Source: Clostridia bacterium
GTDB lineage: Bacteria; Bacillota_A; Clostridia; Christensenellales; Aristaeellaceae
DNA: 13,116 nt
Assembly: GCA_025997215.1 (NCBI GenBank)
Contig: BNUH01000081.1
Span: forward strand, 1-13,116
Direction of reading: 5' to 3'
Each line of letters begins with the position of its first letter. Within the stretch, counting starts at the first letter, position 1. The notes under the pieces are model-generated. The model worked only from the letters and a program-made list of their open reading frames with translations. It was not told where the DNA came from and did no database searches. The position numbers and the translations under genes are program-made. This document shows, one piece after another, positions 1 to 13,116 of the stretch.

Positions 1-8
1 GCGCGACT

Positions 9-30
9 GGGAACCTCGAAAGGGGTTCCT
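9..30 (+). terminator. Hairpin upstream of endolysin, possible terminator
   Basis: An eight-base-pair stem (10-17 with 22-29, one G-U pair, extendable by an outer G-U at 9/30) closes a GAAA tetraloop. It is followed by a U-rich but interrupted tract (about 30-47). It lies between whatever precedes the window and the lysis genes, so it could end the upstream tail/fibre transcript or shape the 5' leader of the endolysin gene. The broken U-tract makes a strong intrinsic terminator uncertain. Confidence 0.45.
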
Positions 31-63
31 CTTCATTATATTACTTTATGGAGGGAAACGCAC

Positions 64-924
64 ATGGCTATTCAAGCGCGGCATCTGGCTGAGGAAGCCT
101 TGAAATTGTTGAGCTATTCACAGATTCCATATGTACACGGCGGATCGTCACTCAATGGGATGGACTGCATCGGTCTGGTGAAATATTGTGCGAAACAGGC
201 CGGAGCGTGGCTGAATTACGCGGGTTCAAACGACGCGTTCCGTAACGCATGTTCGTGGCTGGGCACGTATACCGAAGCAAAGGCACAAGGTCGGCTTGTC
301 CCAGGTGCGGTCGGGTTCATGCTTGAGCATGACGGTCAAGAAGGCGTGAAATACCGCGCTGACGGCATTGGCAACGCCAGTCATATTGGGGTGATAGTGC
401 TGTCAGGCGATATACACAGCATCGATGCGTCGTCCAGCGCTGGCCGCGTCCGTACTCGTACCGCGCGCGACGCCGAGCGCATTTGGACACATATCGGCTG
501 GTTGAAGGAGTTGAATTACGGAATGACGACAGTGACGGATGAAATTGGTGGTACGATAATGAATCCAGCGGCGCAGCAGTTGCGCACGGCGACGATTGTC
601 ACTTTGGATGGTGGAAACCTAAACATCCGAAGGGATCCAACTGATAAGGTTGACAACCGCGTCGGCAAGGCGCCGCATGGCACGACGGTCGAGGTGCTGG
701 AGACGCGCGGCGATTGGACGCGGATCAGATACTCCAGCGTTACAGGCTGGGCGGCGACGCGCTATCTCGCATTCAACGGAACCGCACCCACATCAGCAGT
801 GGAAGTCACGCCCGCGCCTCCGATCGCGCTTATGCCGTTGCCAACAGGATATCGTACGATAACACTTTCCGAGCAAACCGTCCACGAGCTGTATTCCGTA
901 CTGGATGCGGCGATGTTTGGGTAA
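64..924 (+). CDS. Endolysin: NlpC/P60 peptidase with SH3 domain
   Basis: Predicted peptidoglycan hydrolase of 286 residues that would cleave stem peptides in the cell wall at the end of infection. The N-terminal half (about 5-145) has the NlpC/P60 pattern: YVHGG followed by DC with the likely nucleophile Cys35, then SHIGV with the likely general base His107. The third catalytic position probably lies in the HSIDASSSAGRV stretch (118-129), where Asp121 seems to replace the usual residue. Residues about 175-236 (TIVTLDGGNLNIRRDP to GWAATRYL) form a bacterial SH3 domain, typical of wall binding. There is no signal peptide, so it should need a holin, and two follow downstream. GGAGGG at 50-55, eight bases before ATG 64, fixes the start. 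The family call is secure; the bond cleaved is not known. Confidence 0.9.
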   Translation: MAIQARHLAEEALKLLSYSQIPYVHGGSSLNGMDCIGLVKYCAKQAGAWLNYAGSNDAFRNACSWLGTYTEAKAQGRLVPGAVGFMLEHDGQEGVKYRADGIGNASHIGVIVLSGDIHSIDASSSAGRVRTRTARDAERIWTHIGWLKELNYGMTTVTDEIGGTIMNPAAQQLRTATIVTLDGGNLNIRRDPTDKVDNRVGKAPHGTTVEVLETRGDWTRIRYSSVTGWAATRYLAFNGTAPTSAVEVTPAPPIALMPLPTGYRTITLSEQTVHELYSVLDAAMFG

Positions 925-928
925 GCGG

Positions 929-1789
929 ATGATTCAGGTACTATCAATACCGGAATATCAGCCGCCGCCGTTGTCGTTTACGATTCAGCCCACTTTGACC
1001 CGCGATGTGACCTTCAACGGGATGGCATGGCGCGAATATCAGATAGACCTATCCTGCTCGATAACGGTAAGCGGTGATGTCCCCAGCAACTGCGCGGTAT
1101 GGTTGTGCGGCGGCGGTGGTTCGGGATTATCAGGCGGAGGTAACAATATAGCGGGTTCGGGCGGCGGATCTGGCGCTTCCTGTGCGAGTTACACAGGCAG
1201 GATTGCATCAGGAACAATAACCATTGGCGCTGGTGGATCAGGCGGTGCGGGAGGCAAAACATCGTATACCGCGCCAGAAATCGGGCTGTCGCTATCTGCG
1301 AGCGGCGGCAACCGAGCCGGTTACCCATCAGGCATCGGCGAGGCAATCATTGCTGGCAGTGGCGGTTCTGGCGGCGGCATGCCATATACTGTCGGGAACC
1401 AGAGTTCAGCCAAAGCGGGCACAGGCAGCGGCAAAACAACGGTGCCTTTCGGCGACACAACCAATCACAAACCATTATGCGCAGGAGGCGGAGGCGGCGC
1501 CGCGTATTCCAGCAGCACGAGCCGTGGAAGCGGCGGGGTCGGCGGAACAAACGGCGGTAATGGCGGTTCGTTCACCAGCGCAGGTACAGCGAGCAACGGC
1601 GGCTTAGGTGGAAACTATGGCGGTGGCAAAGGCGGCGACGCATCTTCTGCTTCTGTGACAGCGGGTGCAGACGGCAGCGCATACGGCGCAGGCGGCGGTG
1701 GCGGCGCATGCCGAAGCTCTGGCTCAACTAAATCCGCAGGCGGCAAGGGTTATAAAGGCGTCGTTATGATCCGCATACCAATAACGTAA
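929..1789 (+). CDS. Glycine-rich phage protein (tail adhesin-like)
   Basis: About 286 residues from ATG 929. An in-frame ATG at 905, overlapping the endolysin end, is also possible; neither has a clear Shine-Dalgarno. After a short N-terminal part with PPP, the protein passes through CAVWLCGGGGSG and then about 200 residues dominated by GGxGG, GSGG and GGGGGA runs, ending in KGVVMIRIPIT. This layout (a beta strand leading into polyglycine, then a closing hydrophobic strand) matches glycine-rich domains found in phage tail-tip or fibre proteins, where polyglycine helices can form a receptor-binding sandwich. The position just after the endolysin, at the fibre/lysis boundary, fits a virion-surface role. 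No chaperone or anchoring domain is visible, so function is inferred from composition and position only. Confidence 0.6.
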   Translation: MIQVLSIPEYQPPPLSFTIQPTLTRDVTFNGMAWREYQIDLSCSITVSGDVPSNCAVWLCGGGGSGLSGGGNNIAGSGGGSGASCASYTGRIASGTITIGAGGSGGAGGKTSYTAPEIGLSLSASGGNRAGYPSGIGEAIIAGSGGSGGGMPYTVGNQSSAKAGTGSGKTTVPFGDTTNHKPLCAGGGGGAAYSSSTSRGSGGVGGTNGGNGGSFTSAGTASNGGLGGNYGGGKGGDASSASVTAGADGSAYGAGGGGGACRSSGSTKSAGGKGYKGVVMIRIPIT

Positions 1790-1800
1790 TGAGGTGCATC

Positions 1801-1980
1801 ATGTTGATAAAGAAGAATCGCCCGAAGATAGCATTACGCGCCGCGCCTGAAAAGGACGGCGCGGTTATTTGTGCCATAGATTCGACAGCGGCAAAGGAAG
1901 TCATTCAGGTCAAAGGCGACTGGCAGTATGTGCGAGTAAAAGTAGGCAAACGATCTTGTATGGGTTGGGTGAAAACATGA
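1801..1980 (+). CDS. Small lone SH3-domain protein
   Basis: A 59-residue protein that is almost wholly one bacterial SH3-like domain: KIALRAAPEKDGAVI, then VKGDWQYVRV, then CMGWVKT. This is the same strand pattern as the SH3 domain of the endolysin at 64-924 (NIRRDP..., RGDWTRIRY, GWAATRYL). I chose ATG 1801 because GAGG at 1791-1794 lies six bases before it. An in-frame ATG at 1789 overlaps the previous stop and lacks a ribosome-binding site. The stop overlaps the next ATG (ATGA at 1977-1980), so translation is probably coupled. Without a catalytic domain it could be a wall-binding accessory or inhibitor of the lysin, or a virion component; this is inference. Confidence 0.65.
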   Translation: MLIKKNRPKIALRAAPEKDGAVICAIDSTAAKEVIQVKGDWQYVRVKVGKRSCMGWVKT

Positions 1981-2612
1981 GAAGAATACCTCGCGGGACG
2001 CTGATATTGGTTAGCCTGGCCACACTCATTGTGTTTTCAGTAAGTTTATATAACGTTGTAGATAGAGTTGACCAAGCGCTATTCATGGCACAATGGGACG
2101 AGAAAGTGCGTACTGTCAACCTGTTCTGCGATGAAGTCGATCGCTATGTCATAGAGGATCAAGACTGGCTCGAGTACGATTACGCTACTCTTATGCGCGG
2201 TCAGGCTCAAGAAATGGACGCGTGGCCGAACCTGTTCGCCGCGTTGTATGGCGACGATATGAACCTGTTGACGGATCGAACGACGCCCCCTGGTGAGATA
2301 CTGATGTATCCAGTATCTGACCCAATGATACGCGGCGCCGTTCACTCAAGTGAACAAGGCGAGTTCACAACCCGATATCATGGTGAGAACAGCGCGGGTG
2401 AAGAGATTCGTGTCTACTATCGCTGGGTGCCTTCAGGTCCCGGGTATGAGCATAAAATCCTGTTTATTATCGCAATGCGCGAACGTCCATTGGATAGCGC
2501 GCCCAGCGCAATGCTGATCCGGTGGTGCATACTGCTGATTGCGCTGACTGGTGTAATAAACCTTGTTGCCGGTATATCGTACGCGGCCACGAGCAGGAGA
2601 CGGCCATCATGA
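1977..2612 (+). CDS. Membrane protein, two TM segments, in lysis cassette
   Basis: I do not recognise this 211-residue protein. It starts with a positively charged MRRIPRG followed by a hydrophobic segment (about 8-27). Then comes a polar, acidic domain (about 28-175) with WDEKVRTVNLFCDEVDRYV and VYYRWVPSGPGYEHKILFII, and then a second hydrophobic segment (about 180-202) ending in RRRPS. Both positive ends should be cytoplasmic, putting the middle domain outside. That topology resembles extracytoplasmic sensor domains of two-helix receptors, but no signalling domain follows. ATG 1977 overlaps the upstream TGA, and the open frame continues upstream inside the SH3 gene only as a shadow. Its 3' end overlaps the holin start by ATGA. 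The position suggests a lysis-timing, envelope-disrupting or exclusion role; this is inference. Confidence 0.7.
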   Translation: MRRIPRGTLILVSLATLIVFSVSLYNVVDRVDQALFMAQWDEKVRTVNLFCDEVDRYVIEDQDWLEYDYATLMRGQAQEMDAWPNLFAALYGDDMNLLTDRTTPPGEILMYPVSDPMIRGAVHSSEQGEFTTRYHGENSAGEEIRVYYRWVPSGPGYEHKILFIIAMRERPLDSAPSAMLIRWCILLIALTGVINLVAGISYAATSRRRPS

Positions 2613-2923
2613 AAGATAGAGATTATTTAGCGTTGGTCATCCAAGTTTTGATGGCGGCGGCAGGTGCGCTGGCGCGGATCTTTAACATGAGCGAACCGAC
2701 GGAACTGAAAAGTGTACTCGGTCAGGTATTTGTCGCGGGCTTCACAGGCGCATGTCTATACTGGGTGTCCGACATGTTGAAGTTCGATCAAGGACTCATG
2801 TTCGCGCTGGCAGGGATTGCGGGTTGGATGGGTCCGCGCGCATTGGACGGCCTGAGTGCGAAGTTGTCAAAACAGGCGGGGATTGATCTGACAGGGAAAG
2901 ACGATAATGATAGGAGTATATAA
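2609..2923 (+). CDS. Phage holin, LydA-like (holin superfamily III type)
   Basis: A 104-residue small membrane protein. Three hydrophobic stretches can be seen: about 7-25 (ALVIQVLMAAAGALARIF), 40-60 (GQVFVAGFTGACLYWVSDML) and 67-82 (LMFALAGIAGWMGPRAL). A hydrophilic, charged tail ends in KDDNDRSI. The GIAGWMGPRALDGLSAKL block is typical of LydA-type holins. Its expected role is to form holes in the membrane that release the endolysin. AGGAG at 2595-2599 precedes ATG 2609 by nine bases. The start overlaps the TGA of the upstream membrane protein, so an upstream in-frame ATG at 2522 is rejected. Confidence 0.8.
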   Translation: MKDRDYLALVIQVLMAAAGALARIFNMSEPTELKSVLGQVFVAGFTGACLYWVSDMLKFDQGLMFALAGIAGWMGPRALDGLSAKLSKQAGIDLTGKDDNDRSI

Positions 2924-3223
2924 ATGGCTAACATTATAATAGAAACCGCTATCGCGATAGCGCTTTTGTGCATTACAGGGTTATTGATCCCGTGGATCAA
3001 AACGCGGACGACTGCGGCGCAGCAGGATACATTGAACAAAGTGGTTGCGGTACTCGTCCGCGCTGCTGAGATGATATACCCTGGCGAGGAGGGTTCCGAG
3101 AAGTATAAAGCGGTTCACGACTGGTTGACAGAAAGAGGGTTCACGGAAGACGAGGCGGCTATTGAGACAGCGATCGAGGCTGCGGTGTATCAGTTATGGC
3201 AACATAACACCGATAGCGCTTAG
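2924..3223 (+). CDS. Phage holin, LL-H family
   Basis: A 99-residue protein with one N-terminal transmembrane segment (about 3-24, IIIETAIAIALLCITGLLIPW), then a long amphipathic, charged region. YPGEEGSEKYKAVHDWLTERGFT inside it is the typical motif of LL-H holins. ATG 2924 directly follows the stop of the first holin, with AGGAG at 2912-2916 seven bases upstream. Having this and a LydA-like holin side by side suggests a holin plus a second membrane component, possibly an antiholin. Which is which cannot be decided from sequence. Confidence 0.8.
   Translation: MANIIIETAIAIALLCITGLLIPWIKTRTTAAQQDTLNKVVAVLVRAAEMIYPGEEGSEKYKAVHDWLTERGFTEDEAAIETAIEAAVYQLWQHNTDSA
2947..2962. repeat. Perfect 16-bp palindrome inside second holin gene
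   Basis: CGCTATCGCGATAGCG reads identically on both strands. It lies in the coding sequence of the LL-H holin transmembrane segment, at codons reading T-A-I-A-I-A. It may simply reflect the Ala/Ile codons, or it may be a protein-binding site or an mRNA hairpin close to the start codon. Confidence 0.6.
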
Positions 3224-3238
3224 CATTATAAAGCGGTA

Positions 3239-3436
3239 TTATTTGACATCGCGATACGCTTGTGCATCATGTAGGAACGTATCTAAGGGTATATCCTTGA
3301 ATAGTCCTTGCCGCCACTCAGTGTAATCGAATGGCTCACGCCGCAACAACATAATGAACCGTTCTGCTTCCACTAACCCGAGCGATTCAGCAAGCACGCG
3401 CATACCTTCTGATTTTAGTAAAGTATTGTTAAGCAT
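3239..3436 (-). CDS. Small partner of PIN protein, putative antitoxin
   Basis: A 65-residue protein reading MLNNTLLKSEGMRVLAESLG, then EAERFIMLLRREPFDYTEWR, then a C-terminal amphipathic part with FLHDAQAYRD. I choose ATG at 3436 because AGGAGG lies seven bases before it on the minus strand, overlapping the end of the PIN gene by eight bases. A longer in-frame start at 3460 has no such site. It resembles small conserved proteins found next to PIN proteins and is a plausible antitoxin, although no ribbon-helix-helix or AbrB DNA-binding domain can be recognised. The order is unusual: it lies downstream of the PIN gene. Function is inferred from pairing alone. Confidence 0.6.
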   Translation of the reverse strand: MLNNTLLKSEGMRVLAESLGLVEAERFIMLLRREPFDYTEWRQGLFKDIPLDTFLHDAQAYRDVK

Positions 3437-3869
3437 CGTGATACCTCCTAATAAAATCAATAGGGTTCATCACAGTTATCTCGCTTACGGTTTTATTCAG
3501 AATCCGTTTATCCGTGGTCAGGAAATAATCCGCTTCACTATGGATGGCGCAAGCAATGTGAGAAGCATCCATTTGCTTTAAGCCCAGCTTCATAAGTTCA
3601 TGGGCTGTAGTGGTTATCGCATTAGAAAGCGAACAATCAGCATAAGCAAAAGTCTTCCATTGCGCGACTCTCTCGCGTACTTCTGGATAGGGATTCTGAG
3701 CGCTTTCATAGTCAAGAACAAATGACCATGCGAGCTTGATCTCACCGATCAGTATGAGTTCCTGGATACGCAGTTTCGCTTCAGTCTCAAGGTAAACAAC
3801 CAAAGACGTTTGGTCATCAAATGGCCTGTTGAAGCAACAATTATCCAGGTAAACCTTTATATTGTCCAT
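3429..3869 (-). CDS. PIN-domain protein, putative toxin ribonuclease
   Basis: A 146-residue PIN-domain protein. The acidic residues expected for a metal-dependent RNase site are visible: Asp9 in VYLDNCCFNRPFDD, Glu55 in FVLDYE, Asp101 in KQMDASHIACAI and Asp120 in FLTTDKRIL. PIN toxins of the VapC type cleave tRNA or rRNA, but the target here is unknown. ATG 3869 has only a weakly placed GGGAG upstream (about 12 bases). A promoter-like pair (TTGCAA, 17 bases, CACAAT) lies just upstream on the same strand. It is co-transcribed with the small gene 3239-3436. The island runs against the phage late genes and is AT-richer than them (a 60-base sample is about 42% GC), which suggests acquired cargo. 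Confidence 0.85.
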   Translation of the reverse strand: MDNIKVYLDNCCFNRPFDDQTSLVVYLETEAKLRIQELILIGEIKLAWSFVLDYESAQNPYPEVRERVAQWKTFAYADCSLSNAITTTAHELMKLGLKQMDASHIACAIHSEADYFLTTDKRILNKTVSEITVMNPIDFIRRYHDA

Positions 3870-3905
3870 GTTTGCGGTGTCTCCCTATCGTTCATTGGCA
3901 GCTCT

Positions 3906-3934
3906 ATTGTGGCACACATCAAGGAAATTTGCAA
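3906..3934 (-). promoter_or_regulatory. Putative promoter of the PIN operon
   Basis: On the minus strand, TTGCAA (3929-3934) and CACAAT (3906-3911) are separated by exactly 17 bases. Each matches four of six positions of the sigma-70-type consensus. The -10 box is 37 bases upstream of the PIN start codon. It is modest by sequence but is the only reasonable candidate in this intergenic region. Confidence 0.45.
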
Positions 3935-3945
3935 GGGGGGGGGGG
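3935..3945. repeat. 11-base G homopolymer abutting the PIN promoter
   Basis: A run of eleven G (C on the minus strand) directly touches the outer edge of the putative -35 box of the minus-strand PIN promoter, and lies 34 bases before the terL start codon. Such runs slip during replication, so the length may vary between genomes or be a sequencing or assembly artefact. Confidence 0.85.
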
Positions 3946-3979
3946 CGGCTGATGTGGTGTTCTATGATCCCGCTTAGCT

Positions 3980-5590
3980 ATGCAGGACATGAAACAGAGT
4001 ATACCTAAACTAGCCCAAAGCTTCATGCTTCCTGAATCGCACTATGATCATGATTGCGCTGAGTTGGTGGTTCGGTTTATTGGTGCGTTAAAGCATACAA
4101 AAGGCGAGTGGAAGAATAAACCATTCGATCTGCTGCCCTGGCAAGAGGAAATAGTACGCACAATATTTGGCGTAATCGGGAAGGACGGATACCGCCAATG
4201 CAGAACATGTTATATATTCATATCAAAGAAGAATGGTAAGACTATGCTTGCCGCTGCGCTCGCGCTGTATATGCTGGTTGCGGATGGTGAGTATGGCGCG
4301 GAGATTTATTCATGCGCAGCTGACCGCGCGCAGGCGTCGCTGGTATATCGCGAAGCTGCGACCATGGCGCGCGACTGTCCTGCGCTTGCCAAGCGGATAA
4401 AGATATTGGAATCCCAAAAGCGGCTTGTGTACTCGCCAACCAACAGTTTCTATCAAGTCCTGTCCAGCGAGGCGTATAGTCACCATGGGGTGAACGCCAG
4501 TGCTATACTTTATGACGAATTACACGTCGCCGATAGAGAAATGTTTCGCGTTATGACGCACGGTTCGTCAGACGCGCGCCGCCAGCCGCTGCATGTGTTT
4601 ATTACAACCGCTGGCAACAACACAAACAGTATCGGGTATGAGATGTACCAGCGCGCCGTCGATATACGCGATGGCAGGAAGGTCGACCCGTCGTTTTTGC
4701 CTGTTATATATGAAGCGGTGCCTACGGACGACTGGTCTGATCCGAAGGTATGGGCGAAGGCTAACCCGTCTATGGGACATACATTCTCGGAGGACGCGTT
4801 GCGCCGCGCGTTTGAGAGCGCAAAGCAGAATCCGTCCGAGGAGAATAGCTTCCGCCAACTGCGGCTTAATCAGCACGTGAAGCAGAGTATCCGCTGGATG
4901 CCTATGGAGAAGTGGGACGCTTGCGCGTTCACTGTGGATACTGACGGCCTCCATGGTCGTATATGCTATGGCGGGCTCGACTTGTCGTCCACGACCGACC
5001 TGACCGCATTCGTACTGGTGTTCCCGCCGCAAGATGATAACGACCGTTACACCGTCCTACCGTTCTTTTGGCTTCCTTCGGAAAACATGCTCCAGCGCGT
5101 GCGCAGAGATCATGTGCCCTATGATGTGTGGGAGCGGCAGGGCTTCCTGAAAACTACGGAGGGTAATGTCGTACATTACGGGTTCATCGAGAAATTCATT
5201 GAAGAGCTTAGCGAACGGTATGACATCCGCGAAATCGCCTACGATCGTTGGAGTGCTACGCAAGTATCCCAAAATCTGGACGGCGCAGGAATGACGATGA
5301 TTCCGTTTGGACAGGGATTCAAGTCGATGTCCGCGCCGACCAACGACTTGATGCGGCTGACATTTAGTAAATGCATAGCACATGATGGGCATCCCGTACT
5401 ACGCTGGAACATTGACAACATCTTCATCAAGACTGATCCCGCCGGAAACATCAAGGTTGATAAGGAAAAAAGCACCGAGCGCGTGGATGGTGCGGTCGCG
5501 TTGATTATGGCGCTCGATAGGGCGGTCAAGCGCGGAGGCGGTAACAGTGGCGCCAGTGTTTACGATACGCGCGGGCTCCTTATTGTCTAG
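3980..5590 (+). CDS. terL: Terminase large subunit (HK97/Terminase_1 type)
   Basis: DNA-packaging motor ATPase and nuclease, 536 residues, a full length for the family. The N-terminal ATPase has a Walker A-like SKKNGKT at 82-88, Walker B ILYDE at 176-180 and a likely coupling motif at FITTAGN (207-213). The C-terminal RNase H-like nuclease begins at YGGLDLSSTTD (330-340), with Asp334 as a probable metal ligand. A late acidic residue sits in ERVDGAVALIMALDRA near the C-terminus. ATG 3980 and ATG 3989 are both possible, and neither has a usable Shine-Dalgarno; an in-frame stop at 3965 rules out a longer protein. No small terminase gene precedes it. The 3' end overlaps the convergent Fic gene by 11 bases. 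Confidence 0.95.
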   Translation: MQDMKQSIPKLAQSFMLPESHYDHDCAELVVRFIGALKHTKGEWKNKPFDLLPWQEEIVRTIFGVIGKDGYRQCRTCYIFISKKNGKTMLAAALALYMLVADGEYGAEIYSCAADRAQASLVYREAATMARDCPALAKRIKILESQKRLVYSPTNSFYQVLSSEAYSHHGVNASAILYDELHVADREMFRVMTHGSSDARRQPLHVFITTAGNNTNSIGYEMYQRAVDIRDGRKVDPSFLPVIYEAVPTDDWSDPKVWAKANPSMGHTFSEDALRRAFESAKQNPSEENSFRQLRLNQHVKQSIRWMPMEKWDACAFTVDTDGLHGRICYGGLDLSSTTDLTAFVLVFPPQDDNDRYTVLPFFWLPSENMLQRVRRDHVPYDVWERQGFLKTTEGNVVHYGFIEKFIEELSERYDIREIAYDRWSATQVSQNLDGAGMTMIPFGQGFKSMSAPTNDLMRLTFSKCIAHDGHPVLRWNIDNIFIKTDPAGNIKVDKEKSTERVDGAVALIMALDRAVKRGGGNSGASVYDTRGLLIV

Positions 5591-6362
5591 TTTCACGATC
5601 CAGGGTTAAGCCCCATGTTTTTACAGTCTCCGACCTGAGAAAATCGCACATGGGGCGGATGACTTCATCACTATCATAGCTTTCCAGCGCTTTATAATAC
5701 AGCGCTTTGTCTTCATCGTACACAATGACTGGAGGATGGTTATGTATCATTAGGAAATAGTTCGTTAGAGTCCGCCCGACGCGGCCATTCCCATCAGCAA
5801 ACGGGTGTATATGCTCAAATGACGCATGAAAATAAGCGGCGGCTTTCAGGATTGCTTCAAAGGGTTTGCTGTCCGGCTGACCATCGGATGGCATCTCCTT
5901 GAGCTCTTCCAACAAATCCATGACAGCCTGTGGCGCTTCATCGGGCGTTGCGCCTACCTCTGCGCGACCTGTCACATAATCGTGTTTTTTGAAAGCACCT
6001 GGACGTTCGCCTCGCTCGATGAATCGGCGTGCGTCATATGTGCCGCTCGTAAGTATGCAATGTGTTTCAAGCACGATGTTCTTGCTGAGCGGTTCGCGAG
6101 CGGCTATTTTATGCTTTAGATACTCATAGCATAGTTTTTGATTACCCAGTTCAAACAGAGCGCGTGGATCGCCGGTGTAGTTAAGCACTCGGCCATTCTC
6201 AAACAATTCGCGAGTATCAAAATATGTAATCGAGTCGTTCTCGATCTTTGTCGAGTTAAACGCGAAAAGGATCCTGAAGTTATCAAGACGGCAATCGATA
6301 TCCGAGACGGTTGCGACATGCCAGCCACGCCACATGTCAATGATTTTCTCGTATGACACCAT
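5580..6362 (-). CDS. Fic-domain protein, putative AMP/nucleotidyl transferase
   Basis: A 260-residue Fic protein. The catalytic motif HPFADGNGRVGR (186-197) is complete, with His186 as the base, Asp190 for metal and the phosphate-binding GNGR. Residues about 121-138 (PGAFKKHDYVTGRAEVGA) are the likely target-binding flap. S-T-K-I-E-N at 37-42 matches the (S/T)xxxE(G/N) inhibitory motif, placing it among Fic proteins with an N-terminal self-inhibition helix. Such enzymes usually transfer AMP from ATP to a protein hydroxyl; the target here is unknown. ATG 6362 is chosen because AAGGGG lies eight bases upstream; an in-frame GTG at 6371 is rejected. It runs against the late genes with its own promoter, and its stop lies inside terL, so it looks like a moron. 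Confidence 0.9.
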   Translation of the reverse strand: MVSYEKIIDMWRGWHVATVSDIDCRLDNFRILFAFNSTKIENDSITYFDTRELFENGRVLNYTGDPRALFELGNQKLCYEYLKHKIAAREPLSKNIVLETHCILTSGTYDARRFIERGERPGAFKKHDYVTGRAEVGATPDEAPQAVMDLLEELKEMPSDGQPDSKPFEAILKAAAYFHASFEHIHPFADGNGRVGRTLTNYFLMIHNHPPVIVYDEDKALYYKALESYDSDEVIRPMCDFLRSETVKTWGLTLDRETRQ

Positions 6363-6380
6363 GGTTATCACCCCTTGGCT

Positions 6381-10406: not shown

Positions 10407-10840
10407 TATGCATAGCGAAGTGTGAAGTGATGCTTCCAGAAGAGTTCATGGCAAAGCTGGAAGGCTTAGGGGAGCGCGTCGATGAGGTTATCGAGAAGTC
10501 GCTCAAAGCCGGCGGCGAGGTCGTGAAAGCCGCTGTATCCAGCAAGCTCGCCTCATCCATCGGCAAGACCAAGCGCCTTTCACGCTCTACTGGCGAACTG
10601 CAAGGCGCGCTTGGTGTGTCGCCCGTTAAGGTTGGCAGAGAGGGTTCGGTCGATATACATGTCGGCTTCGCGGAGCCACGCCGGAATGGTGTTGCTAACG
10701 CTATGCTCGCGAACGTGTTGGAATTTGGGAAGGCGGGGCAGCCAGGGCACCCGTTCATCAAGCCGGCTCAGTCAGCGTCGAAATCTGCTGCTGAGGCGGC
10801 AATGGCGGCGGTTATCGATGGGGAGATCAACAACCTATGA
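10403..10840 (+). CDS. HK97 gp10-like head-tail joining protein
   Basis: A 145-residue protein of the HK97 gp10 / tail-component family. It has KCEVMLPEEFMAKLEGLGERVDEVIEKSLKAGGEVVKAAV, then RSTGELQGALGVSPVKVGREGSVDIHVGFAEP, then NAMLANVLEFGKAGQPGHPFIKPAQSASKSAA, with a final helix. It is thought to act at the head-tail interface. The start is GTG 10403, which forms a GTGA overlap with the previous stop and keeps the family-like KCEV segment. An ATG at 10430 would drop that segment and has no good ribosome-binding site. The end overlaps the next ATG (ATGA at 10837-10840). Confidence 0.85.
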   Translation: MICIAKCEVMLPEEFMAKLEGLGERVDEVIEKSLKAGGEVVKAAVSSKLASSIGKTKRLSRSTGELQGALGVSPVKVGREGSVDIHVGFAEPRRNGVANAMLANVLEFGKAGQPGHPFIKPAQSASKSAAEAAMAAVIDGEINNL

Positions 10841-11181
10841 ACCTGCTGAATGAAATGGTCGAAGCCCTTAACGCGCTAGGCATCCCCGTGGAAACAGGCG
10901 TGTTTTCCGAAACGCCACCCGACACATATGCCGTGATAACGCCTCTGGCTGATACGTTTCCCATATGCGCGGATGATACGCCAGAGATAGACCTACAGGA
11001 AGCGCGCGTCTCCCTGTTCACAAAAAATAACCCGCGTACATTGCGCAACCAGATCATCCGCGCGTTTCTGGCGGCGGGGATAAGCATCACAGATCGCGTC
11101 TATGTCGGGTATGAGGCCGATGTCAGCCTTCACCATATCGCCATTGACGCGGAGAAACAATATTTATGGAGGGATCAATAG
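10837..11181 (+). CDS. Tail completion / tail terminator-like protein
   Basis: A 114-residue protein directly before the presumed tail tube gene, the usual place of the tail terminator or tail completion protein (DUF3168 / gp11-like). It starts with a helix (MNLLNEMVEALNALGIPVETGVF), then TYAVITPLADTFPICADDTPEIDLQEARVSLFTKNNPRTLRNQIIRAFLAAGISITDRVYVGYE, and ends in a strand-rich HHIAIDAEKQYLWRDQ. The order (helix, paired strands, helix, strands) fits the family, but the assignment rests mainly on synteny. Translation is coupled to the preceding gene through ATGA. Confidence 0.68.
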   Translation: MNLLNEMVEALNALGIPVETGVFSETPPDTYAVITPLADTFPICADDTPEIDLQEARVSLFTKNNPRTLRNQIIRAFLAAGISITDRVYVGYEADVSLHHIAIDAEKQYLWRDQ

Positions 11182-11202
11182 TTGGCTACGATTGGCATGG
11201 AC
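11182..11202 (+). CDS. Major tail protein, 5' exon (intron-split)
   Basis: TTG 11182 follows the previous stop without a gap, with GGAGGG (11168-11173) eight bases upstream. It encodes MATIGMD, the typical opening of phage major tail proteins that begin MATIG followed by a hydrophobic residue. The place (right after gp10-like and tail-completion-like genes) is where the tail tube gene belongs. After codon 7 the sequence becomes a group II intron. Read through, the frame would add only VRPDRAS before a stop at 11224-11226. Exon 2, with nearly the whole protein, must lie beyond the window. Confidence 0.72.
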
Positions 11203-11755
11203 GTGCGCCCAGATAGGGCATCGTGAAGTGTGGATTTGGCGCCACCCCGCATGGTAACGCGGGAACCAACCTGCCTAACCGAAAGGCGAAAGCTGGCACG
11301 GGAACAGAGCACGGCAGGGAAGCGGGGAGTCGGCTAAAGGTATTTTGCCGAGACTGACCTGCGATTGGAAGCGGATATGAGGATTATGCTGTGTTTGCAA
11401 AACGTGAGTCTCTAGTGTCCTTTCCGAATAGGATGTGGGAAATGTACCTGAAACCCACACTGTGGACAACATTGCGGACTGTCCAGACGCAATGGGTTGC
11501 CAAATAGTCCACGGCACAAGCCGGAGAACCGGTTCCAACGAGACGAAAGCGAATCCGACAATCCGAATGCCTCATCACGATGCTAACTGGGGATACCCTA
11601 AACGGACACGCCGCAAGGCTATAGCAATTGCGCTTGAATAGTCCGCAAGGGTACGGAGCGTTCGTAGTAGTCTGAGGACGGTAACGCCGTCCACATGGCG
11701 AAGGAGCGCAGCTGGTACGCTTGGAATCAAAATTGATTAGAGAGGAATACCTCGT
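11203..11755 (+). ncRNA. Group II intron ribozyme, domains I-III and start of IV
   Basis: This is the structured RNA part upstream of the maturase gene. The EBS1 loop is on a perfect seven-pair stem (11470-11476 with 11488-11494). Its loop holds GTCCA (11481-11485), which pairs fully with TGGAC at exon positions 11198-11202. A second loop on the TCCT/AGGA stem (11418-11421 with 11430-11433) holds CCGA (11424-11427), which can pair with TTGG at 11192-11195 with one G-U pair. An adjacent stem is GTGGG (11435-11439) with CCCAC (11454-11458). Domain assignments follow from likeness to Ll.LtrB as I know it; no folding was run. Confidence 0.85.
11742..11753 (+). promoter_or_regulatory. Domain IVa hairpin covering the maturase ribosome-binding site
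   Basis: GAGG (11742-11745) pairs with CCTC (11750-11753) around an AATA loop. The same GAGG is the Shine-Dalgarno for the maturase ATG at 11756, ten bases away. In Ll.LtrB the equivalent element is the high-affinity LtrA binding site, and LtrA binding there represses its own translation. The same layout here suggests the same control. Confidence 0.6.
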
Positions 11756-13116
11756 ATGAAATCAACAATCGAGATTCTGGGCAGATTGAACAGGGATTCT
11801 GCCATGAACACAAATGAAGTGTTCACGCGTGTCTACCGCTACATGCTGCGACCGGACATTTACCACGTTGCGTATCGAAATCTATACGCGAACAATGGCG
11901 CGGCCACAAAAGGCGTAAACGACGACACGGCAGACGGCTTCGGTGAGGAGAAAATCAACCGTATCATTGAACGGTTGAAAGATGGTTCATTTGAACCCTC
12001 ACCTGTTCGCAGAACGTATATCAGAAAGAAAACCAACAGCGCCAAACTGCGTCCGTTAGGTATTCCAACCTTTACGGATAAGCTGGTGCAGGAAGTGATC
12101 CGACTGATACTGGAAGCGATATACGAACCCGTCTTTCTGCCATGTTCGCATGGTTTTCGTCCGAAACGAAGCTGCCATACGGCACTTGCGGAGTTAAAGA
12201 AGAGCTTTACTGGCGTCAAATGGTTTATTGAGGGCGACATCAAAGGGTGTTTCGATAATATCGATCACCATGTGTTGATCAGCTTGATTGAACGGAAAAT
12301 CAAGGACGCACGTTTCATCCAATTGCTCTGGAAATTTCTAAAAGCAGGATATATGGAAAACTGGCGGTATAACGCCACGTACAGCGGCACGCCGCAGGGC
12401 GGTATTGTCTCGCCGCTGCTTGCCAATATCTACTTGCATGAGCTGGATAAACGAGTACTCAGTGAGAAGGAAGCATTTGACCTGCCACGAAAAAGCTACT
12501 ATAACTCCGCGTACTCCAGCCAAGCTGCCAAGGTGCACGTCTTACGTAAAAAGATCGGCGAGGCTGCTGCCAACGAACGCCCAGAACTGATTAAGGTGTT
12601 GAAAAACGCCCGCAAGATTCTGCAATCAATACCCGCGAAGATGCAGACCGACAAACGGCTGGTCTACATCCGTTATGCTGATGACTTTATCATCGGCGTC
12701 AACGGTGATAAAGCGGACTGTGAGCGAATCAAACATGATCTGGGACAATTCGTGAGCGATACCCTGAAAATGGAACTGAGCGCTGAAAAGACCCTCATCA
12801 CGCATAGCAGCGAGAAGGCGCGATTCCTAGGGTATGATATCCGTGTCCGTAGAGAAAATGCGGTAAAGCCTAATGGTCTAGGCTATACACAGCGCACGCT
12901 GAACTATAAGGTGGAACTGGGCATACCATTCAAAGATAAGATCGAACGATTCTTGTTTGATAAGAAAGTTGTATGGCAAGATGCATATGGGTATCTCAAG
13001 CCATGCCATCGAACCAAACTTGTTCATCTCAGTGACCTGGAGATAGTAACTGCGTACAATGCTGAACTAAGAGGGATCTGCGGATACTATAGTTTAGCCG
13101 TGGACTATGCGCATCT
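11756..13116 (+). CDS. ltrA: LtrA-like group II intron reverse transcriptase/maturase (partial)
   Basis: The first 453 codons of an intron-encoded protein, open to the window edge. LtrA of Ll.LtrB is about 600 residues, so the end of the maturase (X) region and any DNA-binding and HNH endonuclease domains would be outside. Reverse transcriptase motifs are intact: KLRPLGIPTFTDKLVQEVI; SHGFRPKRSCHTAL; EGDIKGCFDNIDH, with catalytic Asp161; TPQGGIVSPLLANIYLHELD, with PQGG from residue 213; YIRYADDFIIGV, with YADD at 307-310; and EKARFLGYDI. A charged insertion before YADD (about residues 237-300) is characteristic of the mitochondrial-like/LtrA class. The protein should help the intron fold and splice and copy it into new DNA sites. 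Nothing visible inactivates it. Confidence 0.93.
   Translation, partial: MKSTIEILGRLNRDSAMNTNEVFTRVYRYMLRPDIYHVAYRNLYANNGAATKGVNDDTADGFGEEKINRIIERLKDGSFEPSPVRRTYIRKKTNSAKLRPLGIPTFTDKLVQEVIRLILEAIYEPVFLPCSHGFRPKRSCHTALAELKKSFTGVKWFIEGDIKGCFDNIDHHVLISLIERKIKDARFIQLLWKFLKAGYMENWRYNATYSGTPQGGIVSPLLANIYLHELDKRVLSEKEAFDLPRKSYYNSAYSSQAAKVHVLRKKIGEAAANERPELIKVLKNARKILQSIPAKMQTDKRLVYIRYADDFIIGVNGDKADCERIKHDLGQFVSDTLKMELSAEKTLITHSSEKARFLGYDIRVRRENAVKPNGLGYTQRTLNYKVELGIPFKDKIERFLFDKKVVWQDAYGYLKPCHRTKLVHLSDLEIVTAYNAELRGICGYYSLAVDYAH

Follow-up and report, generated by a model that had tools for sequence, protein, structure and literature searches.

The closest described system to the element analysed here is Ll.LtrB, the group II intron of Lactococcus lactis plasmid pFI430, which resides between codons of a relaxase gene. 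According to reviews, most bacterial group II introns lie outside housekeeping genes (PMC4424553 and PMC6003770, in the passages available). A report of 2025 (PMC12350094) described group II introns that interrupt phage genes for which intronless homologues exist, as is the case here; in the parts available, genes for tail, portal or capsid proteins go unmentioned in its main text, which also includes no analysis of the insertion sites in IMG/VR. In integrative and conjugative elements (ICEs) of Streptococcus suis, group II intron families likewise each occupy one conserved protein motif, and splicing is needed for the conjugation genes (PMC12479173); these homes are conjugative elements, not virion genes, and the passages concerned include no analysis of codon phase or wobble. 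Splicing within capsid and tail genes has been demonstrated by RT-PCR for the introns of cluster J mycobacteriophages, which, unlike the present one, are group I introns lacking a reverse transcriptase (PMC3706429, in the passages available). Among the literature matches listed, drawn mostly from papers outside subscription, neither group II introns in virion genes nor a codon-phase rule was found. The intron described below is of a known kind, and it is the repeated use of virion genes by its lineage and the codon-phase pattern that are of specialist interest, the latter being the most novel aspect.

The window, that is, the whole stretch of DNA analysed, is a complete contig of 13116 bases that ends within the open reading frame of an intron-encoded protein. 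Very probably, a Heliusvirales-like siphophage has its major tail protein gene interrupted here by a mobile, splicing group IIA intron of the Ll.LtrB type. The window directly supports the conserved insertion site, the core of the intron, its pairing with the exon and an intron protein whose frame is open as far as it extends, and the complete arrangement with filled and empty alleles is supported in relatives, where it fits splicing and retrohoming; for the window itself, we infer splicing, mobility and an exon 2 of its own.

Profile matches delineate a siphophage late region in the order terminase large subunit, reversed Fic, portal, ClpP-type protease, HK97-type capsid, two head-tail connectors, HK97 gp10 and tail terminator. 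The capsid protein is 59-66% identical to the best 30 of 564 matching phage records, mostly gut phages filed under Ca. Heliusvirales, with Erysipelothrix phage phi1605 also among them. The tail terminator gene (10837..11181, + strand; phrog_78, E 5.5e-13) directly precedes exon 1, and its product is 31-50% identical to that of the gene preceding the tail gene in 17 loci of relatives; used alone as a query in viral contigs, it returned seven pattern matches, none of them a relative. The Fic/DOC gene (5580-6371, - strand) lies between terminase and portal, a position occupied in relatives by an abortive-infection protein, a regulator or a nucleotidyltransferase (L053, L055 and L054, respectively), so that it looks like a hot spot for cargo. 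Just before the terminase, a small gene (3239-3869, - strand) overlaps a PIN-domain match that is weak, reaching 20.2 bits where the cut-off is 23.6, and the two possibly constitute a toxin-antitoxin pair. Lysis-type genes, namely an NlpC/P60 gene with SH3 and two holin matches, precede the terminase large subunit in positions 1-3980, and no small terminase was seen between them and the large subunit in that region; possibly, the map is circularly permuted.

Exon 1 of the major tail protein gene occupies positions 11182..11202 (+ strand) and consists of a TTG start and seven codons reading MATIGMD; it is preceded by a ribosome-binding site, GGAGG, read from the sequence at 11168..11172, and by the TAG stop of the tail terminator gene at 11179-11181. 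The start of this gene was thus described accurately in the sequence-only reading of this stretch, strong ribosome-binding site included, and so was the 5' end of an Ll.LtrB-class intron at 11203. The sequence from that base onward is GTGCGCCCAGATAGGG, and its first five bases, GTGCG, conform to the GUGYG of group IIA introns. When the whole window was compared with 50,697 phage records by megablast, a single record, PV036457.1, was retrieved, with a match that begins at exactly 11203 (73.5% identity over 11203-11776, E 6e-46). The intron (11203..13116, + strand) is cut by the contig end, such that D1-D3 and part of D4 are present, whereas D5, D6, the 3' splice site and exon 2 lie beyond 13116. 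In the frame of exon 1, the unspliced message reads MATIGMDVRPDRAS and stops seven codons past the exon, so that virion assembly would depend on splicing.

The window intron resembles Ll.LtrB in its 5' end, in the alignment of D1-D3, in the layout of EBS and delta, in its LtrA-type protein and in its insertion between codons, and differs in that it interrupts a phage tail gene and carries other guides. The 5' regions of 28 introns, including Ll.LtrB, align and fold into one structure of 132 pairs, 102 of which show at least one compensatory change. When the structure was derived from the 27 relatives with the window left out, the window formed 127 of 133 pairs, compared with 44-50 when the partners were slid by 1-3 columns and with a mean of 48 and a maximum of 64 in 500 letter shuffles. 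The EBS1 guide GTCCAG (11481..11486, + strand) pairs with exon positions -1 to -5 of IBS1 (-6 to -1) and is mismatched at -6, and the EBS2 guide CCGAA (11424..11428, + strand) pairs with -8, -9, -10 (a G.U pair) and -11 of IBS2 (-12 to -8) and is mismatched at -12, both IBS elements being contained in exon 1. This gives 9/11 pairs (5/6 for EBS1-IBS1 and 4/5 for EBS2-IBS2); with both strands of the window counted, 28 of 26206 positions do as well, the true site being one of them. The delta base is T at 11480..11480 (+ strand), from which exon 2 is expected to open with A; in 52 of 61 relatives, delta pairs with the opening base of exon 2. A hairpin of the form GAGG...CCTC (11742..11753, + strand), conserved in the family and located before the start of the intron protein, is taken by us to be likely DIVa, by analogy with Ll.LtrB.

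An Rfam search of the window with E values up to 1 gave no match. All five complete relatives searched (L007, L013, L039, L089 and L148) matched the D5/D6 model RF00029, with the matches ending at the boundary used here, and none of the five matched the D1-D4 models; the null result in the window therefore probably reflects a limit of the D1-D4 models. Because Rfam detects this type of intron by D5/D6 alone, copies cut before their 3' end go unannotated.

An artificial junction at 11203, in which assembly joined a phage contig to a bacterial intron, is extremely improbable: the junction is represented by one contig only and by no second sample, but it falls on the exact base where relatives carry the intron, and the guides fit this particular exon.

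The intron-encoded reverse transcriptase/maturase (11756..13116, + strand) is represented by 453 residues up to the contig end, most complete relatives being about 600 residues long. It matches RVT_1 (E 9.9e-36) and the group II reverse transcriptase/maturase model (E 1.2e-82; 277.8 bits against a cut-off of 300), contains the YADD motif and, cut as it is, scores 20.3 bits for Intron_maturas2, with a cut-off of 20.8; no endonuclease domain is seen in the part present. With 58.5% identity to LtrA, the protein is LtrA-like, as had been read from the sequence; the further description as intact did not hold, because the contig breaks off at residue 453 of a frame that is open up to that point. On the protein tree, the window protein forms a long branch.

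The identity of the interrupted gene emerges from relatives with the same site. In all 15 viral contigs matching a pattern of site plus intron, MATIGLD directly precedes the intron, which lies at the same codon boundary as in the window. Nine of these contigs reach exon 2, where the frame resumes with SLYYA..., one more leaves a single codon, and five end inside the intron. In same-site relatives, exon 2 continues in frame 0 and is open across the length of the gene, for example, over 858 bases in L013 and L019; the intron is also found at this site in L033. The second exons of L013 and L033, the two tested, match the phrog_88 major tail protein (E 4.4e-43 and 3.1e-47, respectively), whereas a Pfam search of the L013 exon gave no match. 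An uninterrupted gene starting with MATIGLD was found at 15 loci, all with an ATG start as opposed to TTG in the window. Among 11 annotated relatives, the protein encoded after the tail terminator starts with MATIGLDK in four (L039, L054, L060 and L062) and with other sequences in seven. In the window, the gene likewise follows a phrog_78 tail terminator and begins with MATIGMD, compared with MATIGLD in the relatives. The assignment of the interrupted gene to the phage major tail, made before any of these comparisons, is therefore upheld by the second exons and the intronless loci: in relatives with this type of site, a tail frame continues past the intron, and the intronless ones carry the same gene.

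Filled and empty alleles can be aligned to the base. The 500 bases before the tail-gene intron of L019 correspond to positions 1088-1587 of L004, which is empty at this site (95.4% identity), and the 500 bases after it correspond to positions 1588-2087 (93.4%), so that the two flanks are contiguous at 1587/1588 and the intron boundary is fixed. Conversely, L004 harbors an intron in gpG at a stretch that is uninterrupted in L019 (93% identity upstream; the frame and 88/135 bases downstream), and L005 and L019 lack the intron that L003/L065 carry in the tape-measure gene. Tested on 13 empty tail alleles, the guides of the window intron form 9 or 10 of 11 pairs in every case, and the base that follows the site pairs with delta in 11 of the 13. 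In a quick tree, the tail-site introns of L013, L019, L065 and L033 form a clade (SH-aLRT 98.7) from which the window stands apart; in topology tests on the 68-row set minus 10 rows, plus two, none of the trees in which the window was forced together with L013/L019/L065 (p-AU 0.104), with L033 (0.11) or with all four (0.258) was rejected, so that the tail site may have been invaded once or several times.

In the mechanism that we propose, codons 7 and 8 of the major tail protein gene would have been separated by a sense-strand insertion of the intron at their exact boundary. Its RNA would fold with the help of its own maturase, EBS1, EBS2 and delta would pair with the exon ends, and the intron would splice out, joining MATIGMD to an exon 2 predicted to start with K or S followed by L-Y-Y-A. 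The ribonucleoprotein may subsequently spread to related phages in which this conserved site is empty. It is very unlikely that the insertion is instead dead or non-splicing, marking a defective phage, a prophage remnant or a mere gene interruption. The contig is cut, two relatives have disrupted intron-protein frames (L033 and L034, the latter through an IS3-like insertion), and a prophage helicase that bears a putative group II intron has been taken to be inactivated (PMC11318856, in the passages available); yet in the window, the intron core and the guides are conserved and the protein frame is open as far as the contig goes, and the open second exons of the relatives also argue against this reading. 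Copies can nevertheless decay, as indicated by L033 (925-2700), a tail-site intron with a broken protein frame and both exons still readable. In L034 (2424-3941), an insertion that carries IS3-like transposase frames, named by eye, on the opposite strand splits the protein of a protease-site intron.

We compiled related introns from 38 viral loci and 64 genome loci with related proteins, from pattern matches and from PV036457.1; 18 of the 64 genome loci lacked a 5'-end match and were dropped. The 137 raw 5'-end matches (105 distinct) yielded 82 distinct introns, the remainder being duplicates, lacking an intron protein or lying in unrelated places. Of the 82, 78 were aligned, 77 of these with 13 exon bases, giving 73 unique combinations. 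The introns fall into 34 site clusters built from exon similarity, with the relaxase site split over two (L089 and L101) and several coupling-protein positions lumped in one. Virion genes account for 15 clusters with 43 introns and conjugation genes for nine clusters with 29 introns, including an NlpC/P60 gene cluster that we take to be conjugative; two clusters are in other phage genes (exonuclease, L098, and holin-like, L149), and eight bear no label. The virion clusters comprise six positions in the ClpP-type protease (assigned by reading), the portal, a head-tail connector, a gp10-type neck protein, gpG, two in gpT, the tail protein phrog_365, the tape measure and the major tail gene. These labels are based on a match to a named family in nine clusters, on an unnamed family in one (gpT, L039) and on motif reading only in five; most conjugation labels come from one tested representative each, with L101 and L105 assigned by reading. 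With virion genes this common in the lineage, and with group II introns in phages already reported in 2025 (PMC12350094), the home of the window intron is not the unusual one that it had appeared to be from the sequence.

Two introns of the lineage are present on each of the contigs L065 (tail and tape measure) and L007 (portal and protease). The genome loci L081, L082, L086 and L104 likewise have introns of this lineage, in genes of phage type. On the protein tree, which contains 60 labelled and 8 unlabelled rows and has weak deep forks, at least three changes between phage and conjugation genes are required. The EBS1 sequence GTTGTG is common to the phage protease site MIHN|P (L139-L148) and the relaxase site HN|H (L089), a possible bridge between phage and conjugative hosts. 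The gpT intron and the tail genes of the gut phage PV036457.1 recur in L093, a contig titled as a Micrarchaeota MAG that probably represents mis-binned phage DNA.

The catalogue, which covers this intron lineage only, reveals a pattern in the codon phase of insertion. Frame 0 is the longest open frame on both flanks of 52 of the 82 introns and on one flank only of 13; with only the upstream flank available, 12/82 fit frame 0, and in 5/82 another frame is longer. All five, including the window, belong to the tail site, with its exon 1 of seven codons. In none of the 82 introns do both flanks contradict frame 0. By cluster, 26 of the 34 fit on both flanks, five upstream only and three are mixed, and none contradicts phase 0. 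The guides pair on average at 9.9 of 11 positions with the exon of their own site, compared with 5.1 for exons of other sites. With one intron taken per cluster, non-Watson-Crick guide pairs amount to 52/102 (51%) at third codon positions (-1, -4 and -10) and to 30/272 (11%) at the other positions (Fisher p 2.6e-15), and the guide base is G or U opposite 75/102 third positions, compared with 136/272 elsewhere. In the window, the sole third-position imperfection is the G.U pair.

Phase controls beyond the close lineage are few. Among 24 further loci, eight of the more distant ones (L120, L124-L129 and L155) have frame 0 as clearly the longest after the 3' end, five or more of these representing one site. 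Three loci of the close lineage also fit frame 0, L078 and L115 after the intron and L094 before it; in L123 and L132, another frame is longest downstream, and the rest are not decisive. Phase 0 together with wobble is thus a strong tendency of the lineage rather than a law.

We give an even chance to the interpretation that the lineage reads its targets codon by codon, inserting between codons in conserved stretches of genes that a phage or conjugative element has to keep. Pairing by the guides would be strict at the first two bases of a codon and lenient at the third, which may let one intron follow a protein motif across drifted phages, with virion and conjugation genes as its two main homes and moves between them. 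The chance is a little short of even that the pattern is not an adaptation and stems either from descent together with jumps among sites having short coding motifs in common, or from protein-read bases that happen to match the codon rhythm. In line with jumps of this kind, the EBS1 GTTGTG serves both the relaxase HN|H and the protease MIHN|P, and GCCTTT serves two coupling-protein sites. In line with a coding rhythm, several first codon positions near the site are often G, as in coding DNA generally. LtrA contacts T-23, G-21, A-20 and T+5; in a search for a protein-contact signature around the site, only G-21 (0.51) and T+5 (0.48) were mildly favoured and, because other first codon positions favour G too, we do not claim such a signature. 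Some observations also depart from the codon-phase scheme: the two guide mismatches of the window (-6 and -12) are at first codon positions, L013-type introns are mismatched at -5, a second codon position, and the more distant intron of MT836071 (L156) appears to be in phase 1, which is open upstream for 213 bases, compared with 3 and 18 in the other frames. Against a non-adaptive origin, the guides differ widely among the 34 clusters, and the imperfect pairs concentrate at -1, -4 and -10.

Annotation that ignores these introns misses head and tail genes. More broadly, a single intron lineage is found repeatedly in the genes with which phages build their particles, with two introns at once in at least two contigs. 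Such phages offer a test bed for group II splicing under high demand and for the passage of introns between viruses and conjugative elements, and the codon-phase pattern provides a testable account of how a sequence-specific mobile element may track a protein motif through synonymous drift.
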